Shown one piece after another: positions 2,942 through 17,728 of a DNA stretch of 22,052 bases. This DNA is from a virus. Numbering within the stretch: position 1 is the first letter of the stretch; each line of letters begins with the position of its first letter. The notes beneath the pieces are model-generated. The model was not told the origin of the DNA and ran no database searches. It saw only the letters and a program-made list of their open reading frames with translations. Where the stretch lies: IMG/VR virus record IMGVR_UViG_3300035158_000646, positions 1 to 22,052 of that record, one strand, 5' to 3'. The position numbers and the translations under genes are program-made.

Positions 2942-4281
2942 GCATAATTAAAAGTATTCCTGGATTACGTAGGTTAGCAGCTAATGATACTAAAGATGAG
3001 AAACCTGCATTTAAAGGTTTTTCTACTAAAGCAAATGAAAGAGTTACGGAATATTTTTCTGATAAACCAAGAAATAAAAGAGCTTTAGATGAAAATTGGA
3101 ATATTTATTCACAATCTGAAGTTCCATTTGCAGCAGTTATGGCATTAGCTTATAATTCTGTTGGTGACTGGAAAATACATTGTGAAGATGAAGAAATAAA
3201 GAAAAAAATTACTAAATTTTTACGCAAAAATAATTGGCATCAAATACAATTAGACATTGTTAGAGATTGCTGTGTTTTTGGCGATGCATTTATTGAAAAA
3301 GGTTATGGCCCTACTGGTAAACTCGCAGGATTACGTTATAGAGACCCAAGAACATTTCAAACAAAAATTGATGTCAAAGGTGATATTAAAGAATATTTGC
3401 AAACAGTAACTATAAATAGTCAGTCAAAGACTACTACATTAAAACCAAATGAAGTTGCTAATTATCAGTTATTTACTGACCCGGGAAGCCCTTATGGATT
3501 GGCTTTAATAAGTCCTGTTAAAGACACTATGAAAAGAAAGACAATAGCTGACGAAGGAATTGCTGCGGCTATAGATAGGCACGGTTTTCCTAAATATCAT
3601 ATTGTAGTAAAAACACCAGAAGGTTATGCTAATGAAAGACCTTCAGGTTCTGATATTGATACTGTTGCTGCTGATTTTCGTAATATAACTACAAAAAACG
3701 AAATTGTTACTACAGAATGGATAGAGATTCATCCCTTAGATTCTAAGGGAGTAGAAAATGTTGAAGAATATTTTAATTATTTTCAAGCATCTGTTACTTG
3801 TGGTGTTTTAGTTCCTCAAGAAGTTTTGGGATTAGGAAGTGGTTCTACAGAAGCTACTGCAAGAGTAAGACGATTAATGTTTCAAAAATTAGTTCGTGGT
3901 TTTCAAACAATTATAGCACAAATAACTGAAAATGAAGTTTTATCTGAACTTGCTGATGATAAAATTGATGTTCGTATTGTTTATCCAGATGCAGTTCCAG
4001 AAGATGACAAATTAATTGCAGAATCAATAAGCAAACTTATGCCGAAAAGTGACCCATTTGCTGTCTTTACACAAGATGAAATTCGTGAAAGATTTGGATA
4101 TCCTCCAAGAGAATTAGCTGAGAAAGTTAGGAAAACTCTTGTAGAAAAACATCTCGAACAATTTACAGGTACAAAAGTTGAACAAAAGGATACACAAGTG
4201 AAAAATCTTTCTGATTTAGATGAGATTTTAAAAGAATACAGTGAAAAAGTCAAATCACAAATAAGGAAACAGTTTACATAA
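2938..4281 (+). CDS. Portal protein
   Basis: A 447-aa protein directly after the large terminase, in the standard packaging order. Portal-like features are the N-terminal half with repeated hydrophobic beta elements (VFGDAFIEKGYG near 112-124, RYRDPRTF near 132-139), the GSPYGLALISPV segment near 183-194 common to portals, and a helical stem/crown region with LGLGSGSTEATARVRR near 298-313. The C-terminal 60 residues are charged and helical. It would form the 12-fold ring at one capsid vertex for DNA entry and exit and the neck docking site. ATGA overlap with terL and TAATG overlap with the next gene imply coupled translation. The portal call rests on context plus these patterns. Confidence 0.88.
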   Translation: MSIIKSIPGLRRLAANDTKDEKPAFKGFSTKANERVTEYFSDKPRNKRALDENWNIYSQSEVPFAAVMALAYNSVGDWKIHCEDEEIKKKITKFLRKNNWHQIQLDIVRDCCVFGDAFIEKGYGPTGKLAGLRYRDPRTFQTKIDVKGDIKEYLQTVTINSQSKTTTLKPNEVANYQLFTDPGSPYGLALISPVKDTMKRKTIADEGIAAAIDRHGFPKYHIVVKTPEGYANERPSGSDIDTVAADFRNITTKNEIVTTEWIEIHPLDSKGVENVEEYFNYFQASVTCGVLVPQEVLGLGSGSTEATARVRRLMFQKLVRGFQTIIAQITENEVLSELADDKIDVRIVYPDAVPEDDKLIAESISKLMPKSDPFAVFTQDEIRERFGYPPRELAEKVRKTLVEKHLEQFTGTKVEQKDTQVKNLSDLDEILKEYSEKVKSQIRKQFT

Positions 4282-5612
4282 TGTCACTCGACAGTATCGT
4301 TGGAGACTATGCAGAGAAAATTGTGAAGTCTCTTAAAAGATTGTATATTGACTCTTATGCTGCTGGTGCAAAAGAGGTAAATCCAATACCTATGATTCAA
4401 AAAACTATTTACAGTGATGCTGTAGATTATTTTCATGAGCAGAGTGATTGGATTATTGACCATTTTCATGATTTTGATGCTAGTGTTCTTCACGGTAAAT
4501 TGTCTTCAGCATTAGCACAAGGCAGTAGCTTTGGTGAGTTTTGGAAAACTGTCAAAGATTCTGGTTTATTTAGTCATGATAGAGCAAGAAAAATATTTAG
4601 AACTGAAAGTGCGAGAGCATATAGTGAAGGCACAGTAAGACAATATCAAAAAGAAGGAGTAAAAAAAATTAATACTTTGCTAGGCCCAAATCCTTGTCCT
4701 ATTTGTGTAGATATAAATCAAAGTGGGCCGTATAATACAAAAGATGTTCATGGGATGTTACCAATACATCCGAATTGTTCTTGTGTTTTCGTAGATGCAA
4801 AATATGCGCCCAAACCAAAACTTGGTCGTGTTGGCGACAAAGACTACAAATGGTCTATTGATGATAAAGAATATGATAGATTGTCTAAAATTGCAGATGA
4901 TGTACTTAAAGGATTTGACAAAAATTTAGTATTACACGATGAATCAAGATGGAGGCGTGCATCATATGCAGGTAAATTTTTTGATTCATACATATTAAAA
5001 GCTGTTCCTCAGAATGTATTTGAAGCTCAACATTTTATGTGGGGAGCTTGGAATCGTTCATGTTCGACTGGCCCAACTGTTGCTGTACTTAAAGGTATGA
5101 CAATGCAGAAGATGCCAGGTTCAAAAGTTCTCTTTCATGCAGGTTATATCAATAGAAATGCTAAAGCAATGAATAAATTTAGAGAAGAATATTCATATGG
5201 ATTAAAGTATTTGAAAGATAATTATAGAGGAGTTGCTGAAGCTGATATTGCTCATTATTTTGATGCGCTTTATCTTTACAATAGTAAAATGATGCAGCAT
5301 GTTTATGGCAAAAAAGTAAAATTGTATCGAGGATTAAGTTTTAGTGAATGGAAACAAAATGGTTCTCCTCTAAAAAAAGGAAAATATAAAACACAAAGTA
5401 ATTCTATAACTTCTTGGTCTGATAATAGAGATATAGCAGATAATTTTAATCATGATATACAATTTTTGTATGATGCTCATCCAGGAGATGTTTTAACTTC
5501 GTATCTTAATGGTCATTTTACAAGTTATGCAATAGAAGCTGAATATGTAATGATTGGTGGAGAAAGAACTTATGATTTATTTTTGTCTGATAAATGGTTA
5601 GCACAATTTTAA
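4281..5612 (+). CDS. MuF/SPP1 gp7-type minor head protein fused to an ADP-ribosyltransferase-like domain
   Basis: A 443-aa two-part protein. Residues about 1-175 match the MuF minor head morphogenesis family: a helical region, FRTESARAYSEG at 106-117, then the zinc-binding-like end CPIC at 139-142 and HPNCSC at 163-168. Residues about 215-443 carry the R-S-E pattern of ADP-ribosyltransferases: LYRGL with R350, SITS at 374-377, and EAE at 419-421 followed by YVMIGG, comparable to the ExE turn of this fold. The first part would join the procapsid next to the portal. If active, the second would be a virion-delivered enzyme modifying a host protein with NAD. MuF proteins with toxin C-termini are known from temperate phages. 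Activity is inferred from motif residues only. Confidence 0.85.
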   Translation: MSLDSIVGDYAEKIVKSLKRLYIDSYAAGAKEVNPIPMIQKTIYSDAVDYFHEQSDWIIDHFHDFDASVLHGKLSSALAQGSSFGEFWKTVKDSGLFSHDRARKIFRTESARAYSEGTVRQYQKEGVKKINTLLGPNPCPICVDINQSGPYNTKDVHGMLPIHPNCSCVFVDAKYAPKPKLGRVGDKDYKWSIDDKEYDRLSKIADDVLKGFDKNLVLHDESRWRRASYAGKFFDSYILKAVPQNVFEAQHFMWGAWNRSCSTGPTVAVLKGMTMQKMPGSKVLFHAGYINRNAKAMNKFREEYSYGLKYLKDNYRGVAEADIAHYFDALYLYNSKMMQHVYGKKVKLYRGLSFSEWKQNGSPLKKGKYKTQSNSITSWSDNRDIADNFNHDIQFLYDAHPGDVLTSYLNGHFTSYAIEAEYVMIGGERTYDLFLSDKWLAQF

Positions 5613-8024: not shown

Positions 8025-9594
8025 AAATAAAATTAAGTGGACAACTAGATACATAAATAGTCTTCCAGATGCTGCGTTTGCTTACATTGAACCTGGTGGG
8101 AAGAAAGATTCTGATGGTAAAACAGTTCCTAGAAGTTTGAGACATTTTCCACATCATAATATGTCTGTGAAAAGAAGTACTGAACATAATACAGTTGATA
8201 GACCACATTTAAGGAATGCATTAGCCAGAGCACCGCAAAGTTCTCATGGTTCTAAAGCATTATCTCATTTAAAGATTCATGCTAAAGCATTAAAAATTGG
8301 TGCTTTTAAAATAGGTGGAAAGTTTAATCAGCTAAAAAGTAAAAGTCGCAGAATAATTGCTGGATATGCATCTTATGTTATGGTCGATGCGCATTCAGAT
8401 ATTGTTACAAAAACTGCATTACAAGATGCTCTCAAACGATTTATGAAAGACAAGAAACACAGAAATATTATGTATGGGCATGACAATGTCCAAGTTGGTG
8501 ATTTGTTAGATAAATTTGGGCCTTACACAACTCATGTTGATGATAAAGGTTTATTTATTGTTGCAGAAATTAGAACTGACCTTAAAACTTCAGATTTTGT
8601 TTGGGAGAAAATTTTAGTTGGTGAAGTTAATGCGTATTCAATTTCTTTTGAGCAATTAGAAGAAACTCCGCATGTTACTGATGGTGTTTGGGAAGAAATT
8701 CAGAAGATTAATTTAGTAGAAATTTCAGTTTGTGAATTTCCAGCAAATGCATTATCTAGATTTAATATTATTTCAAAAAGTAAGAATGTTTTAAGAGAAA
8801 AAATAGGCGATAGTATGAGTGAAACCGAATTAAAGAAGCAAAATAAAGCCGCTAATAAAGAAGTCAATTTAGATGAGCTTATCGATGCAATATTGTCGTT
8901 AAACGATGAAGACCGCAAAGCATTGAAAGAGAAAGCAGATATTGATATCTCTCCAAATGCTGGCTTAGTGAAAGCTATTTCAGCAGAATTGGAAAGATTG
9001 AAAGGTCTTGGTGATGCAATAACTGGTCTAGAATTATCGATGCTTGCAGATTTAGTTACTCAACTTCAAACTGGTCAGAAACCTGAAGATATCGGAAAAT
9101 CTAAGGATGGAATTTCAGAACTTAAAAAGTCTGTAGAAGAAATTCTTAAACGTCTTGATGCTATTGAAAATCCAAAAGCTGACAAGACAGTAGTTATCAA
9201 GAACAAGACTGACAACGGTGACGAAGATAATCCATCTGATGACAAAGGAAATGATAATCCTGAAGATAAAGGTGGAGCAGGTGAAGATAAAGGTGGAGCA
9301 GGTGCTGAAGACAAAGGCAACGAAAATAAAGATTCTCACGAAGATATACTAAAAGATTTTGAAACAGTTAAAAGTGCAACAGAAGAGAATCGCAAAATAA
9401 TGTCTGATATTCAAGAATCTGTGAAAACAATTGAAGATAGAATAACTAAAATAGAGGAAACACCAATTATTAAAACTGGTGCTGATACTGATGATGGCGA
9501 TATCGATAAAGATATCAAAGATTATCAACCAGACAATGTAAGAATGAGTTCTCATAATGTTGAAACAAGAGTAGAAATTGAGGAAGAAAAATGA
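8017..9594 (+). CDS. Prohead protease (S78/XkdF-like) fused to scaffold
   Basis: A 525-aa protein in three parts. Residues 10-95 form a conserved N-terminal module (LPDAAFAYIEPGGKK, then TVPRSLRHFP, then RPHLRNALARAPQ) known from phage proteases and related proteins. Residues about 110-253 are the HK97-family serine protease: GYASYV at 116-121, GHDN with H155, AYSISFEQ with S208/S210, and LVEISVCEFPAN with E235, the expected His-Ser-Glu layout. Residues about 265-525 are acidic, helical and low in complexity, as in scaffolding domains. It would assemble inside the procapsid and cleave scaffold and itself. I chose ATG 8017 over the in-frame ATG 7972 because GGTGA at 8007-8011 lies 5 nt before it and this gives the usual short overlap with the upstream gene. 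Confidence 0.85.
   Translation: MSENKIKWTTRYINSLPDAAFAYIEPGGKKDSDGKTVPRSLRHFPHHNMSVKRSTEHNTVDRPHLRNALARAPQSSHGSKALSHLKIHAKALKIGAFKIGGKFNQLKSKSRRIIAGYASYVMVDAHSDIVTKTALQDALKRFMKDKKHRNIMYGHDNVQVGDLLDKFGPYTTHVDDKGLFIVAEIRTDLKTSDFVWEKILVGEVNAYSISFEQLEETPHVTDGVWEEIQKINLVEISVCEFPANALSRFNIISKSKNVLREKIGDSMSETELKKQNKAANKEVNLDELIDAILSLNDEDRKALKEKADIDISPNAGLVKAISAELERLKGLGDAITGLELSMLADLVTQLQTGQKPEDIGKSKDGISELKKSVEEILKRLDAIENPKADKTVVIKNKTDNGDEDNPSDDKGNDNPEDKGGAGEDKGGAGAEDKGNENKDSHEDILKDFETVKSATEENRKIMSDIQESVKTIEDRITKIEETPIIKTGADTDDGDIDKDIKDYQPDNVRMSSHNVETRVEIEEEK
8815..9594 (+). CDS. Possible nested scaffolding protein (internal start in the protease gene)
   Basis: Within the protease-scaffold frame, ATG at 8815 begins MSETELKKQN, exactly at the boundary between protease and scaffold domains. 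The sequence AGGCGAT ends 3 nt before it, similar to the GAGGCGAT before the glycosyltransferase gene. Translation from here would give a free 259-aa acidic, coiled-coil scaffold sharing the C terminus of the protease fusion, as in phage lambda where Nu3 is made from an internal start in gene C. The major capsid protein here is short and shows no scaffold-like delta domain, so a separate scaffold is expected. Inference only. Confidence 0.45.
   Translation: MSETELKKQNKAANKEVNLDELIDAILSLNDEDRKALKEKADIDISPNAGLVKAISAELERLKGLGDAITGLELSMLADLVTQLQTGQKPEDIGKSKDGISELKKSVEEILKRLDAIENPKADKTVVIKNKTDNGDEDNPSDDKGNDNPEDKGGAGEDKGGAGAEDKGNENKDSHEDILKDFETVKSATEENRKIMSDIQESVKTIEDRITKIEETPIIKTGADTDDGDIDKDIKDYQPDNVRMSSHNVETRVEIEEEK
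9262..9303 (+). repeat. Two tandem 21-bp repeats in the scaffold region
   Basis: The unit GAAGATAAAGGTGGAGCAGG plus a final T occurs twice back to back (9262-9282 and 9283-9303), followed by a degenerate continuation (GCTGAAGACAAAGG). It encodes EDKGGAG repeats in the flexible acidic part of the scaffold. The exact DNA identity suggests recent slippage duplication; length variation between relatives would be expected here. Confidence 0.85.
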
Positions 9595-10031
9595 CCGTAA
9601 TAAGTTCATTTCCGACTGCTACAAATCGAATATTAATTCACGGTGACAACACATACACATTCACAGCTGCAGAAACTTTGAAAGCTGGACAAGTAGTTTG
9701 TTTAACATCTACTGGTGGAGATTTCAAAATATATCCAGCAAATTCAGGCGATACAGTTTGCCCATTAGGTATTGTAGACCAAAATGCAACATCTGGTGAT
9801 ACTGACGTAACAGTAAACCTTTATGGTTATGTTACTAAAGTTGCAAATTGTGATGATACAACTGCAATTGAAGCTGGTAATGCTGTGAAATTATCTACAG
9901 CTGATGGTGCTGTTGTAAAAGTAACTCCTGGTGGAGCTACAGAATATATCGTTGGAATCGCAATTACTGATATTGCTGCAGATGGCTGGGGAGACTTGTT
10001 AATTGCGCCTCACATCAACACAATAGCATAG
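9591..10031 (+). CDS. Capsid decoration protein, paralogue 1 (DUF2190-like)
   Basis: A 146-aa protein, first of three neighbouring paralogues. Shared landmarks are an N-terminal SSFPT/SFP segment, AAETLKAGQVV near 26-36, LGIVDQNATSGD near 60-71, YGYVTKVANCDDTTAIEAGNAVKL near 78-101, and YIVGIAITDIAADGWGDLLI near 123-142. The pattern (ExxxAGxVV, GVA, VxxxGxVxxV, GxAxxDIxxxGWG) fits DUF2190-type capsid stabilising proteins that trimerise on the outside of HK97-fold heads. It would act on the mature capsid surface. Start ATG overlaps the scaffold stop as ATGA with a GAGGAAG site upstream. Role by similarity and context beside the major capsid gene. Confidence 0.75.
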   Translation: MTVISSFPTATNRILIHGDNTYTFTAAETLKAGQVVCLTSTGGDFKIYPANSGDTVCPLGIVDQNATSGDTDVTVNLYGYVTKVANCDDTTAIEAGNAVKLSTADGAVVKVTPGGATEYIVGIAITDIAADGWGDLLIAPHINTIA

Positions 10032-10040
10032 GTGATATAA

Positions 10041-10484
10041 ATGGCAGATGTAAGTTCATTTCCCGCAAGACACACGATATTAGTCACAGACCCTCAAATT
10101 GCTGATTTAAGGACATTTACTGCTGGTGAAGATATCACTGCAGGAATGATTGTTGAATTAGATACAGCAACTGGAGATAACATAGTTAAACCTGGAGATT
10201 CTGATGACGCAGGCCCTGTAGTTGGTTCTGCATTATTTGGCGCATCATCCGGTGACCCTGTTACTGTATGTATGCCAGGTTGTATTGTGTATGTAGCTAA
10301 TGAAGACGACGGTTCTGCTGTTGGTGAAAGTACTTTACTTCAACTTGCTGACAATAACGTTGGCGGGTTAGTATTGGCATATGCATCAGGAGCAGGATAT
10401 ATTGTAGGTTTAGCACTTGAAGATATCGCAGCAAACGGTTGGGGTAGAGCAATCCTTATGCCTTACGAACAGGTGGTTAGTTAA
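10041..10484 (+). CDS. Capsid decoration protein, paralogue 2 (DUF2190-like)
   Basis: A 147-aa paralogue of its two neighbours, with MADVSSFPA at the start, AGEDITAGMIVEL near 28-40, VYVANEDDGSAVGESTLL near 79-100 and YIVGLALEDIAANGWGRAIL near 120-140. Its first two dozen bases nearly match those of paralogue 3. It is the most divergent at residues 10-25 (DPQIADLRTF). The AGGTGAT ribosome-binding site overlaps the upstream TAG stop and lies 6 nt from the ATG, a strong site consistent with a high-copy structural protein. The stop overlaps the next ATG as TAATG. Confidence 0.75.
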   Translation: MADVSSFPARHTILVTDPQIADLRTFTAGEDITAGMIVELDTATGDNIVKPGDSDDAGPVVGSALFGASSGDPVTVCMPGCIVYVANEDDGSAVGESTLLQLADNNVGGLVLAYASGAGYIVGLALEDIAANGWGRAILMPYEQVVS

Positions 10485-10915
10485 TGGCAGATGTAACTTC
10501 ATTTCCAACAATTACAACTAGAGTTAGAGTTCATGGTCTCAATGCTTTGTCATTTAAATGTGCTGAAACGATAACTGCTGGTATGGTTGTTGATATTGAT
10601 AACGATGGTAACATTGTTGCTGGTAATTCTGCAGACACAAAAGTTCCAATCGGAGTTGCGGATACTAATGGTGCTACAAACGAAACAATTACTGTGAATA
10701 CAATAGGAACTATCTGTTATGTTGCTAACGAAGATGATACTACAGCAATTGGTGAGGGAACTACATTAGCAGTTTCTGATACTGATGGTACTGTTGTAGC
10801 ATTAGCTGGCGGCGCAGATAGTGATGAATATTTGATTGGATTAGCATTGACTGATATTTCAGGTGACGGCTGGGGTCTTTGTTTAATTAGACCTCAATTA
10901 AGTACGACAGCTTAA
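10484..10915 (+). CDS. Capsid decoration protein, paralogue 3 (DUF2190-like)
   Basis: A 143-aa third paralogue: MADVTSFPT start, CAETITAGMVVDI near 26-38, VPIGVADTNGATN near 54-66, CYVANEDDTTAIGEGTTL near 77-94 and YLIGLALTDISGDGWGLCLI near 117-136. It is closer to paralogue 1 in the N-terminal RVRVHG/RILIHG segment and to paralogue 2 in VANEDD, so the three form a mosaic. AGGTGG upstream overlaps the end of paralogue 2. A T-rich stretch follows the stop, before the major capsid gene. Same inferred role on the capsid exterior. Confidence 0.75.
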   Translation: MADVTSFPTITTRVRVHGLNALSFKCAETITAGMVVDIDNDGNIVAGNSADTKVPIGVADTNGATNETITVNTIGTICYVANEDDTTAIGEGTTLAVSDTDGTVVALAGGADSDEYLIGLALTDISGDGWGLCLIRPQLSTTA

Positions 10916-13485: not shown

Positions 13486-13513
13486 AAAATGTATTAAATT
13501 TTAGGTGAATAAG

Positions 13514-14410
13514 ATGACAATAGCAACAAGAGGATTTCAAGGCGAGATTTCATGGGTTGAGGAAACAGCTTATGGTGATGGTGTAGATACAGCAGATACT
13601 TTGCTTTTAATTGCAAATCAAGTTCAATCTGTTAGAGTATCTCATACAAAAGGTTCTTTAGGTGAAACTAGGAATATTGGCTCTTATGATGTTGCTGATT
13701 TTGTATGGGGAACTTTACTGTATGGTGTAACTGTTGAATATCTTGTTGATAGAAATTATAGCTCAACAAATATGTTAATGGCTAAGTCTATTGACAGAAC
13801 ATCAGGTGATATATCTAGTGTTGCAATGCAAATTGGTATTGGAAAAGATAGTGCATCAACAGATAGAGCATGGTTGAATCTTAAAGGTTGTAAAGCTAGA
13901 AATGTTACTGTGAATACTGACAGAGATGCGCCTGTAGTTGCTTCAATAGATTTTTCTGTTAAAGATATTGCAACTAGTACTGATTCAATAGCAACTTGTT
14001 CTGATACTATAGCAACAAGTCCTTGCAAATTTACAGGTGGCTCATTTAAACGTGGTGGTTCTGCTGCTTGGGGTTACATTGTAGGCGGAGTTTCAGTTAC
14101 AATTGATAATGGATTATCTGAAAACAAAGATATTGGTAATACTACATTACATTCTGCTGATGCCGGGCCAAGAGCTGTTACTGGTTCTGTTAATGTTTGT
14201 GTGACAGATGGTGGTCGTACATATCTTGCTGAGTCAACGACTATGACTGACACAGCAGTTGAATTTGATTTTGGTACAGGTACTACAGCAAGTTTAAGAA
14301 TGACAAGCGCTGTTGTAGGAAGCATTGAGATTCCATTAGACTCTGATAGTCCGATTGTAATGACTTCATTACCATTAACTGGAACGTCAATCACGCTTGA
14401 AGCAGTCTAA
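13514..14410 (+). CDS. Major tail (tube) protein
   Basis: A 298-aa beta-rich protein with few aromatic clusters and many T, S, G, V and D residues. It begins with GEISWVEETAYGDGVD, the typical N-terminal pattern of tail-tube proteins, and lies just before the tail chaperone and tape measure genes. The middle has a low-complexity stretch with heptad-like IATS/IATC repeats (about 150-168). It would polymerise into the tail tube. The frame is also open from GTG 13505, but ATG 13514 has AGGTGA 5 nt upstream and is chosen. No sheath gene is found nearby, which favours a non-contractile tail. Confidence 0.8.
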   Translation: MTIATRGFQGEISWVEETAYGDGVDTADTLLLIANQVQSVRVSHTKGSLGETRNIGSYDVADFVWGTLLYGVTVEYLVDRNYSSTNMLMAKSIDRTSGDISSVAMQIGIGKDSASTDRAWLNLKGCKARNVTVNTDRDAPVVASIDFSVKDIATSTDSIATCSDTIATSPCKFTGGSFKRGGSAAWGYIVGGVSVTIDNGLSENKDIGNTTLHSADAGPRAVTGSVNVCVTDGGRTYLAESTTMTDTAVEFDFGTGTTASLRMTSAVVGSIEIPLDSDSPIVMTSLPLTGTSITLEAV

Positions 14411-14446
14411 ATTTTTAAATGTTATATTTGCTATGAGGTGCTTTTG

Positions 14447-14809
14447 ATGGCAGAAGATAAAATTTGTTCGGAATGCGGACAGAAAATTTTAAAAGAAGGA
14501 GAATATGAAAATACTACTAAAATAGATTTCATAAATGGTGGCAAAGAATTTGAAATTCCACTGATAAAAGTTGTAGATATTCGTGAGCTTCAAAAAGTTA
14601 GAGCAAAAATTAAAGATGTAGAATTGAAAGACATTGAATCTAGTGTTGTTCTTGTTAAGATAATGTTAGAGAAAATTGACAAGAATGTAACTAAAGAACA
14701 AATTGAAAATATGGATTATGCTACATTTTTAGATTTTGTTAAAAAGCTTTGGAGTAAGAATGCTGCAAATTTTCGTGGACTCTTGCCGAACTTGCCAGCG
14801 ACATTCTAG
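14447..14809 (+). CDS. Tail assembly chaperone, short form (lambda gpG-like)
   Basis: A 120-aa helical protein between the tail-tube and tape measure genes, the constant site of tail assembly chaperones. It starts with a CSEC pair (C7, C10) that could be half of a zinc knuckle, then a beta-like part (IDFINGGKEFEIPLIKVVDI) and helices with DIESSVVLVKIMLEKI and DYATFLDFVKKLW. GAGGTG lies 6 nt before ATG 14447, so the longer GTG start at 14438 is rejected. Near its end the frame contains a perfect -1 slippery heptamer. The product stops at TAG 14807. It would coat the tape measure during tail assembly and not remain in the virion. Confidence 0.75.
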   Translation: MAEDKICSECGQKILKEGEYENTTKIDFINGGKEFEIPLIKVVDIRELQKVRAKIKDVELKDIESSVVLVKIMLEKIDKNVTKEQIENMDYATFLDFVKKLWSKNAANFRGLLPNLPATF

Positions 14810-14818
14810 TATCGGCAA
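14767..14818 (+). promoter_or_regulatory. Programmed -1 frameshift signal: A AAT TTT plus downstream stem
   Basis: In the reading frame of the chaperone the codons GCA AAT TTT contain the heptamer A AAT TTT at 14767-14773, an exact X XXY YYZ form in which both tRNAs can re-pair one base back. After a 9-nt spacer, TTGCCGA (14783-14789) can pair perfectly with TCGGCAA (14812-14818), a 7-bp stem around a 22-nt loop that includes the zero-frame stop. The -1 frame is open from 14758 to the stop at 15058. This is the arrangement of the lambda G/GT signal. Confidence 0.8.
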
Positions 14819-15060
14819 CAGATGAAAGTAGATTCTATGCATTAGACAAAACTCGTTGGCAACTTTCTCACGCGTATAAATGTCCAATTCAATATGTTGA
14901 CGATTTATCATTAAATGACTTTTATGGGTTAGTTAAAACTCTACAAGAAATATCTGATGCAAGAGCAGGTGGAAGGACTAGATTTCGACCTGCTACAAAA
15001 GAAGAATTAGATTTCGTCAATCGATATATCAAGTCAAAGGAACAACAAAATGGTAGTTGA
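14773..15060 (+). CDS. -1 frame extension of the tail chaperone (T part of G-T fusion)
   Basis: An open frame of 95 codons following the slippery site, in the -1 frame. It has no plausible start of its own, yet its composition is protein-like: TLAELASDILVSATDESRF, then WQLSHAY, LNDFYGLVKTLQEI and a basic end (RTRFRPATKEELDF). Joined through N108-F109 of the short form, the full fusion would be 204 aa. In lambda-like phages the corresponding gpG-T binds tube subunits via its T part while gpG binds the tape measure. Its stop at 15058-15060 overlaps the start of the tape measure gene at 15050, so ribosomes in this frame reach that start. Confidence 0.78.
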   Translation, partial: SWTLAELASDILVSATDESRFYALDKTRWQLSHAYKCPIQYVDDLSLNDFYGLVKTLQEISDARAGGRTRFRPATKEELDFVNRYIKSKEQQNGS

Positions 15061-17728
15061 AAGATTTAATGTAATTTTTTCTGCGATTGACAACATGACT
15101 AGTGGCTTGGGAAGAATCACTGGTGGTTTAAGTGGAATGACTAAGCAAGGACTAGCAATGGGTGCTATGTTCTCATTAGTCAATATGGGTATTCAGGCAG
15201 TGATGAAAGCTATTCAAGCACTAGTTAAATTTGTGCAAGAAGGAATACAAGCTTATGTTAATTTTGAGAAGGGTCTTGCAGAGGTATCTACATTATTGAG
15301 TGATACTTCACCTATGGAAAGTTATCGTGAAGAGTTAAGAGAATTGGCTAAAGATTCTGGTGAATCGTTAGATACATTGACAAAAGGTCTTTACCAAACT
15401 ATTTCAGCATCAGTTGATACTGGAGCTGCAATGGATGTTTTAACTGTTGCTAACAAAGCTGCTATTGCTGGTATAAGTGATACAGCAACCGCAGTAGACG
15501 TTATTACTTCAATTATGAATGCATACGGAATGTCTGCTTCTGAAGCAACTAAGATTTCTGATTATTTGTTTACTGCAGTTAAATATGGTAAAACGACATT
15601 TACAGAATTAGCTGCTGGTGTTGGGCCAATCATCACAATGTCTGCGACATTAGGTATTGGTTTTGAAGAGATTGCTGCTTCGTTAGCAACTATGACAAGA
15701 AGTGGTATACAAACAACGAATGCAGTTACTTATTTAAGAGGTATGTTACGTTCTGTCCTTAAACCAACTGACCAAATGAAAAATACGGCAAGAGAATTAG
15801 GGATTACATTTGATGGGACAACTTTAAAAGCAAAAGGTCTTGGTGGATTTTTAAAATATGTATCAGATGCTGTTGGTACGAATAATGAAGCAATGGCTAA
15901 ATTATTCCCAAATATTAGAGGTATACAAGCAGTATTTGCTTTAGCTGGAGAAAATGCAGAAGCATTTGCTGGTGATTTAAATAATATGGCAAATGCTGGT
16001 GGAGCTACTGAAATTGCATTTGAAAAGATGGCTAATACTACGTCTTTTCGTTTAGGTCAAATGAGAGCTGAAATTAAAGATACTCAATTAGAAATTGGAG
16101 AAAGAATGGTTCCAGCTTCATTAGCTTGGGAAAAGGCAATGTTAGTACTTGCTGGTGCATTAGGAGCAATTATTGATGCAATTGGTTGGCTATGGGATGT
16201 CTTGAAACCAGTAAGAGATTTTATTGTTGCTATTAACAAAGCTTTTGGCGCATTAGTAATAACGATAAAAGATTATGTCATAAAATATTTTGAAGGATTA
16301 TGGGCATTATTAAAACCATTAGTTGAATGGTTAGCTTCAACATTTAAACCTGTAATAGACGCAATTGGTGGAGCTATTGATGCGATAGCTGGTGGATTAG
16401 GTTGGCTTGCTGATAGATTTGGAGAAGCTTGGGATGCTACACAAAAATGGGCAGATGAAGTTCTTTATGGAGAAAAAGCTGCAACTGCTTTAACAAACGC
16501 ATTAGCTCATTCTGAAGAAGAAATAAATGAGATGGCAGCATCTTTGTCAGAGGCTCATAGACAATTAACTGATTTGAATGCTAATATTGAAACTGCAACT
16601 GATGAAATATCTAGATTAAGAGATACAAATGCAGAACTTGTTGATGAAATTGATAGATTAAGAAAAATAAAGGTATTGAGCACTGATTTAGAATTGTTAA
16701 CAAAAAGTACTAAAGATGCTACTTGGGCTCAAGAGATTTTTGATAATGAATTAAGAAGTGCTCAAATTGAATTATTACAAACTAAAGCTTTAGTAGAAGA
16801 GCTTGAAGGTGTAATGGATGAATATGGCGATGTAACTAAGAAAAATAATTTAGAAATAATGAAGATTCGCCATAAAGCTAGAAAAGAAGGACGAGAATTA
16901 ACTGAGGAAGAAGAAAAGTTAATTGAAGAATTAGAATTAGAAAATGAATCTTTAAGGATTAAAATAGAAGAAGAAGCAATTAAAATTGATGAAATACAAG
17001 AAGAGCAATTAGCTGAACAAGAAAGACGAGTAAATGATAGGAAACAACAATTAAAAGATGAAAGAGATGCATTAAAAGAGAAAGCTAAAGATGAAATACA
17101 AATGCTTCAAGAAGAGCTTAGAGCAAATAAAAGGACAATTGAAGAAAAATTAGATGCAATAGAAGAATGGTCAGCAGAAAGAAGAAAAGTTAGAAAAGTT
17201 TTATTAGCAGATTTACAAGAACTACAGACAAATTGGAGTAGTGAAGAATTAGAACAAATCCAAACTTTGTCTGGATTAAAATTAGAAGAAATTGATAGAT
17301 TTATTGATGAAAGTGAAAGAAAGTGGAGAAATCACTATAGGCGATTAGCTGAAATGTCTGGTGGAGAAATTGTTGCTCCGGCAGTTGTAGAAAGAAGTAC
17401 AGAAAAAGCAAGAGCAAGAAATCAAGCAAGACAAGGGCCTTTAGCTAGGAGAGAAGGAATCAGGTCAATGCAAACTGGTGGTTTTATTCCTCATGATATG
17501 GATGTAAGGCTACATAGTGGTGAATATGTTATACCAGAAAAAATTGTTAGATTACTTGATAAATTAGTTACACGACAAGATACATTTACTCCAATTAGAA
17601 GAGGAGCAAGAATAAAAAACATTAATATCTATGGTGACATTAATTTGCCAAATGTTACAGACTATAATAGTTTTATGAGAGAATTTGAAAAGCGTGCTCG
17701 ACTTTTAACTGGTAGTAGATTAGTATGA
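15050..17728 (+). CDS. Tail tape measure protein
   Basis: An 892-aa protein. Residues about 70-340 match the TP901-type tape measure domain (NFEKGLAEVSTLLSDTS, then AVDVITSIMNAYGMSASEA, then YGKTTFTELAAGVGPIITMS and AVTYLRGMLRSVLKPTDQM). A hydrophobic region lies at about 365-460 with several membrane-like stretches (LVLAGALGAIIDAIGWLW), expected for a protein that enters the host envelope on infection. Residues about 485-770 are long coiled coil rich in E, K and L. Near residues 808-840 a TGGFIPHDMDVRLHSGEYVIP motif is typical of tape measure C termini. It would set tail length. The ATG overlaps the frameshifted chaperone frame; the end overlaps the hub gene as ATGA. Confidence 0.93.
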   Translation: MVVERFNVIFSAIDNMTSGLGRITGGLSGMTKQGLAMGAMFSLVNMGIQAVMKAIQALVKFVQEGIQAYVNFEKGLAEVSTLLSDTSPMESYREELRELAKDSGESLDTLTKGLYQTISASVDTGAAMDVLTVANKAAIAGISDTATAVDVITSIMNAYGMSASEATKISDYLFTAVKYGKTTFTELAAGVGPIITMSATLGIGFEEIAASLATMTRSGIQTTNAVTYLRGMLRSVLKPTDQMKNTARELGITFDGTTLKAKGLGGFLKYVSDAVGTNNEAMAKLFPNIRGIQAVFALAGENAEAFAGDLNNMANAGGATEIAFEKMANTTSFRLGQMRAEIKDTQLEIGERMVPASLAWEKAMLVLAGALGAIIDAIGWLWDVLKPVRDFIVAINKAFGALVITIKDYVIKYFEGLWALLKPLVEWLASTFKPVIDAIGGAIDAIAGGLGWLADRFGEAWDATQKWADEVLYGEKAATALTNALAHSEEEINEMAASLSEAHRQLTDLNANIETATDEISRLRDTNAELVDEIDRLRKIKVLSTDLELLTKSTKDATWAQEIFDNELRSAQIELLQTKALVEELEGVMDEYGDVTKKNNLEIMKIRHKARKEGRELTEEEEKLIEELELENESLRIKIEEEAIKIDEIQEEQLAEQERRVNDRKQQLKDERDALKEKAKDEIQMLQEELRANKRTIEEKLDAIEEWSAERRKVRKVLLADLQELQTNWSSEELEQIQTLSGLKLEEIDRFIDESERKWRNHYRRLAEMSGGEIVAPAVVERSTEKARARNQARQGPLARREGIRSMQTGGFIPHDMDVRLHSGEYVIPEKIVRLLDKLVTRQDTFTPIRRGARIKNINIYGDINLPNVTDYNSFMREFEKRARLLTGSRLV

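Follow-up and report, generated by a model that had tools for sequence, protein, structure and literature searches.

The locus described here raises the question of how a protein-like reading frame that has no start codon comes to be expressed. It lies in the IMG/VR virus record IMGVR_UViG_3300035158_000646, of which positions 1 to 22,052 were analysed (this whole stretch of 22,052 nt is referred to as the window). Between the tail tube and tape measure genes, a short gene (G) is followed in the -1 frame by a second coding stretch (T), and an earlier note, made from the letters alone, had proposed that the two are joined into a fusion (GT) by a programmed -1 frameshift of the phage lambda G/GT type. 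This proposal is supported by the slip site, the frame, the gene order, the relatives and the selection on T. On this sequence evidence, the probability that A_AAT_TTT, in a siphovirus-like tailed virus, is the site of a true programmed -1 frameshift of the lambda G/GT type is put at about 0.93.

Reading frames and slip site

The zero frame of G ends at TAG (14807-14809) and the -1 frame at TGA (15058-15060). The -1 frame, open over 14758-15060, contains no ATG, GTG or TTG codon, which agrees with the earlier note; its coordinates, frames, heptamer position and product lengths (120 and 204 aa) were exact, and family matches on both sides confirmed the location between the tail tube and tape measure genes (Table 1). 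ATG 14447 is a better start for G than GTG 14438, because the Shine-Dalgarno-like GAGGTG sits 6 nt upstream of it. The predicted GT fusion consists of 109 residues of G and 95 of T (204 aa), with the junction NFSW.

An X_XXY_YYZ-type heptamer, A_AAT_TTT, is present inside the G/T overlap. In ten other window genes, such heptamers occur in frame at 28 of 4308 codon pairs (AAATTTT once among them), and 0.10 heptamers are expected by chance in the 16-codon overlap. A -1 frame stop just upstream, in the window and in the close relative L091, leaves A_AAT_TTT as the sole perfect heptamer of the overlap. The combination of site, spacing, stem, frame and gene order had been judged hard to explain by chance; the heptamer of one sequence alone is suggestive and not decisive, and the case rests on its conservation in relatives.

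Most ribosomes would translate G and terminate at 14807, and a minority would slip one base back on A_AAU_UUU and continue in the -1 frame to give the 204-aa GT. The slippage would be in tandem, with the tRNA-Phe re-pairing perfectly with UUU and the tRNA-Asn from AAU re-pairing with AAA. By analogy with lambda, G would coat the tape measure protein and the T part would recruit tail tube subunits, so that the G:GT ratio would matter for tail assembly. The slippage itself, its efficiency, the standing of GT as the minority product and these chaperone roles are what we infer.

Conservation in relatives

Relatives were collected by a search with a tail tube alignment, which yielded three close contigs (L089, L090 and L091) as well as several distant contigs; when the GT fusion or the tail tube was used as a single query, no relatives came up. 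Alignments of GT, the tape measure and the terminase, scanned afterwards, contributed terminase contigs and one further distant GT, L105, which was the distant locus of these scans that was analysed. The L089 terminase is 69% identical to that of the window; the tail tubes of the three close contigs are 60-62% identical to the window tube, and the N-terminal 367 aa of their tape measure proteins 72-75%.

The alignment of relatives, which the earlier note had suggested as a check, came out in favour of the frameshift, with AAATTTT kept in 3/3 close contigs and the -1 frame in nine relatives. In L089, L090 and L091, G has its own stop, T lies in the -1 frame and AAATTTT stands at the equivalent place (4/4 including the window), in a context, AAGAATGCTG-AAATTTTCGTGG, that is common to all four. 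Six distant relatives (L054, L057, L060, L067, L092 and L093) also have a -1 shift, with G GAT TTT at the equivalent position in 6/6, and L105 has a lambda-like G GGA AAG in the corresponding region. T of the nine other contigs is 13-51% identical to the window T; the T sequences of both clades could be aligned, with a cross-clade identity to the window of 13-22%.

Among the tape measure relatives surveyed, many have a -1 pair, with sites that are mostly A_AAA_AAC or G_GGA_AAx. L089 itself holds both G_GGA_AAG and A_AAT_TTT, 15 nt apart, G_GGA_AAG being upstream; this upstream heptamer was rejected as an alternative site, as the -1 frame stop blocks it in the window.

Selection on T and constraint at the shift site

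T is under purifying selection. The ratio of non-synonymous to synonymous substitution rates (dN/dS), a further check that had been suggested, was 0.03-0.11 for T among L057, L060 and L067, and 0.12-0.36 in the close clade where it could be estimated, with dS near saturation there. The remaining two frames across the T region are full of stops.

Synonymous codon use was compared at residues that are invariant in the four close sequences. At 14756-14773, 5/5 codons were invariant (expected 1.18); the counts were 8/30 upstream of this segment (expected 6.6) and 5/26 in later T (expected 5.1). The constraint upstream of the heptamer does not come from double coding, since the -1 frame of L091 is stopped right before the heptamer. 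In the distant clade, G always precedes GAT, across four codons (CAG, CCG, TCG and CTG), at a third-position G frequency of just 11-16%.

Downstream stem

A 7-bp stem starting 9 nt past the heptamer had been described in the earlier note. Its arms, TTGCCGA (14783-14789) and TCGGCAA (14812-14818), are exactly complementary and the spacing is correct; as a conserved frameshift signal, the stem was rejected by the folding z-scores and by the missing 3' arm in relatives. The folds of 14774-14843 (z -0.23) and 14774-14823 (z -0.60) were no better than those of shuffled sequences, and the isolated 36-nt hairpin had a z of -2.32 but was picked for its complementarity. In the four-sequence alignment, the 5' arm is kept in relatives, as double coding would predict, and the 3' arm is absent from the close relatives and present in the window only. 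On these grounds the window stem may be a chance pairing. Stimulatory structures enhance frameshifting and do not define the G/GT family.

In the distant clade, GGGG/CCCC arms begin 6 nt after GGATTTT in 5/6 relatives (L057, L060, L067, L092 and L093; absent in L054). The five sequences amount to about three independent lineages. The z of this hairpin ranges from about 0 to -2.9, varying with the sequence and the folded length, and it is a candidate stimulator in that clade.

Alternative explanations

Some results weigh against a programmed frameshift. Folding (without pseudoknots) and alignment revealed no conserved stem at 5-9 nt downstream of the heptamer in the window clade, the constraint past the heptamer is due in part to double coding, and the close comparison comprises four sequences only. 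The fold matches of G favour a tail assembly chaperone by name but are weak by E-value: its predicted structure (a beta hairpin and helices, pLDDT 77) has as best PDB match 2OB9, the tail assembly chaperone of HK97 (E 2.9, probability 0.21) and as best viral match (BFVD) a tail assembly chaperone (E 0.011, probability 1.00), with several further top viral matches of the same name, the strongest at probability 0.99-1.00. T, which is predicted to be helical (pLDDT 72), had no named match, as sequence searches of PHROGs and PDB returned nothing and no hit of the fold search could be clearly named. Neither G nor T was found to be similar in sequence to any named family.

A one-base sequencing or assembly error in a single contig, splitting one gene into two frames, would look identical to the arrangement in the window, but in nine other contigs the frame is interrupted at the same place and in the same direction, the heptamer there being identical or equivalent, so that this explanation is refuted for practical purposes. 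It is also very unlikely, if a little less so, that T is a separate protein made by re-initiation or from an internal start, without any frameshifting. T closely follows G, and ATG or TTG codons occur inside T of some relatives; however, the window T frame has no such codon, the first possible starts of the relatives are at differing places and often well inside T, and the frozen heptamer would be left unexplained.

A shift in the opposite direction was considered because of the codons at the site (AAT TTT CGT), where CGT is a minor arginine codon (26/213) and is invariant in four relatives. For the HF1-group haloviruses, a +1 shift at TTT-CGC has been proposed (PMC7230728). A +1 shift on UUU_CGU in the window has next to no chance of being correct, since only 16 codons are open in the +1 frame and T is encoded in the -1 frame; UUU_CGU could still favour pausing. 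Within the -1 frameshift itself, and as a variant of it rather than a true alternative, a single P-site tRNA-Phe might slip from UUU to UUU with the A site awaiting CGU (or CAG). UUUUC is the part common to both clades, GAU to GGA re-pairing would be poor in the distant clade, and CGT is a minor codon, all of which would suit a single tRNA; but the XXX part is likewise kept, with A ahead of AAT and G ahead of GAT, a feature that slippage of one tRNA would not require, and we consider this variant the less likely form, with perhaps a minor share of the odds.

Host

The lineage of this virus probably has an archaeal host, as judged from the close relative L089, because the phage-database relatives of the L089 ERCC4/Hef nuclease and primase are archaeal viruses only. 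The nuclease is encoded on the 50-kb L089 contig, and nothing in the phage collection matches it except two records of a Methanobacteriales virus; in controls, the ERCC4 family was found in 4/4 archaeal genomes and 0/10 bacterial ones. The phage-collection matches of the L089 primase-like protein were limited to Haloarcula viruses. Archaea-type genes, though present in the L089 contig, were not found in the 22-kb window, and the window terminase and portal gave weak matches to archaeal and bacterial viruses. A search for MCM was uninformative, as it hit none of the relatives but every one of the 14 controls, bacterial and archaeal alike.

Neighbouring genes

The features of the locus are listed in Table 1. 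The N-terminal extension of G, which is missing from the G of relatives, contains a CxxC pair (CSEC, 14465-14476). A group 1 glycosyltransferase gene (70-1131) lies at the margin of the structural module, and a similar gene is found at the same place in the L089 contig. The gene at 4281-5612 encodes a minor head protein of the Mu F type, with a fused domain that matches DRAT (dinitrogenase reductase ADP-ribosyltransferase; PF07357, E 5.5e-09); its L089 counterpart has 180 aa only and seemingly lacks this domain. Three tandem genes at 9591-10915 encode proteins of 143-147 aa, each matching the phage cement family PF09956, the middle one below the cut-off.

Table 1. Features of the G/T locus in the window
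Feature	Position	Strand	Basis or remark
Tail tube protein gene	13505..14410	+	PF18906 Phage_tube_2, E 7.6e-14; directly upstream of G
Shine-Dalgarno-like GAGGTG	14435..14440	+	6 nt before ATG 14447, read from sequence
Gene G, putative tail assembly chaperone read in the zero frame, 120 aa	14447..14809	+	best fold matches are tail assembly chaperones, weak by E-value
Conserved nucleotide block around the shift site, AAGAATGCTG.AAATTTTCGTGG	14756..14782	+	alignment of four close sequences
T, -1 frame extension, 95 aa past the shift	14758..15060	+	no own start; purifying selection; homologous T in relatives
Slippery heptamer A AAT TTT	14767..14773	+	in G frame; same heptamer in L089-L091, G GAT TTT in six distant relatives
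Complementary arms, 14783-14789 and 14812-14818	14783..14818	+	not supported as a conserved stimulator
Tape measure protein gene	15050..17728	+	phrog_991, E 7.9e-59; overlaps the end of T by 11 nt

Relation to known systems

Frameshifts of the -1 GT type are common in tailed phages, and the lambda-type G/GT tail assembly chaperone frameshift was reportedly treated by Xu, Hendrix and Duda in 2004. The lambda slip site is GGGAAAG. The window locus resembles lambda G/GT in its position between tube and tape measure genes, the -1 shift, the short G and long GT, and the heptamer near the end of G, and differs in having A_AAT_TTT. UUU-type slip sites (A_AAU_UUU, G_GAU_UUU) are better known from eukaryotic viruses. 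The lambda system, including the roles of G and GT, has been reviewed (PMC5009743); the same source gives G_GAU_UUU as the shift site of pea enation mosaic virus, which is identical to the heptamer of the distant clade but belongs to a eukaryotic RNA virus and another gene.

If the host were archaeal, the earlier note had argued, this would be a well-defined recoding case of an archaeal virus. That host is likely, by way of the relative, but the case was preceded by HVTV-1 and HCTV-1, -2 and -5 (PMC5009743) and by Hardycor1 (PMC7911831), archaeal tailed viruses for which -1 GT frameshifts in the same gene pair have been reported. In the reported archaeal-virus sites that were found, the A-site codon is AAx, whereas it is UUU in the window. 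In an archaeal translation system, -1 frameshifting has been shown for Saccharolobus solfataricus fucA1 (PMC8211752), a cellular gene with an A_AAA_AAT site.

In Methanobacterium virus Drs3 (L138, 23208-23793) and Methanobacteriales virus vir249 (L137, 12086-12965), the frame that follows the chaperone is in +1. In either overlap there is a TTT C, at which the same tRNA-Phe might slip by +1.

Significance

The frameshift is of an ordinary kind, well supported and in a new lineage, with the proposed tRNA-Phe slippage on UUU, at a less usual slip sequence, as a modest twist. It corrects the gene calling at this locus, since T, having no start codon, is overlooked by ordinary gene finders. Tentatively, and with the balance still against it, an uncultured family of archaeal tailed viruses may make GT through slippage of an archaeal tRNA-Phe on UUU (A_AAU_UUU or G_GAU_UUU). 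Wyosine derivatives are present on archaeal and eukaryotic tRNA-Phe (PMC7761594) and absent from that of bacteria (PMC4417183), so that the UUU site is a possible test of wyosine modification; if the slippage is as proposed, the degree of wyosine-type modification could, speculatively, tune the G:GT ratio.

The locus contributes a recoding site with good support from a virus lineage that is probably archaeal, in which sister clades have two related shift sites. To our knowledge, very few archaeal frameshifts are backed by experiment, and a site that is conserved, short and testable would therefore be useful.
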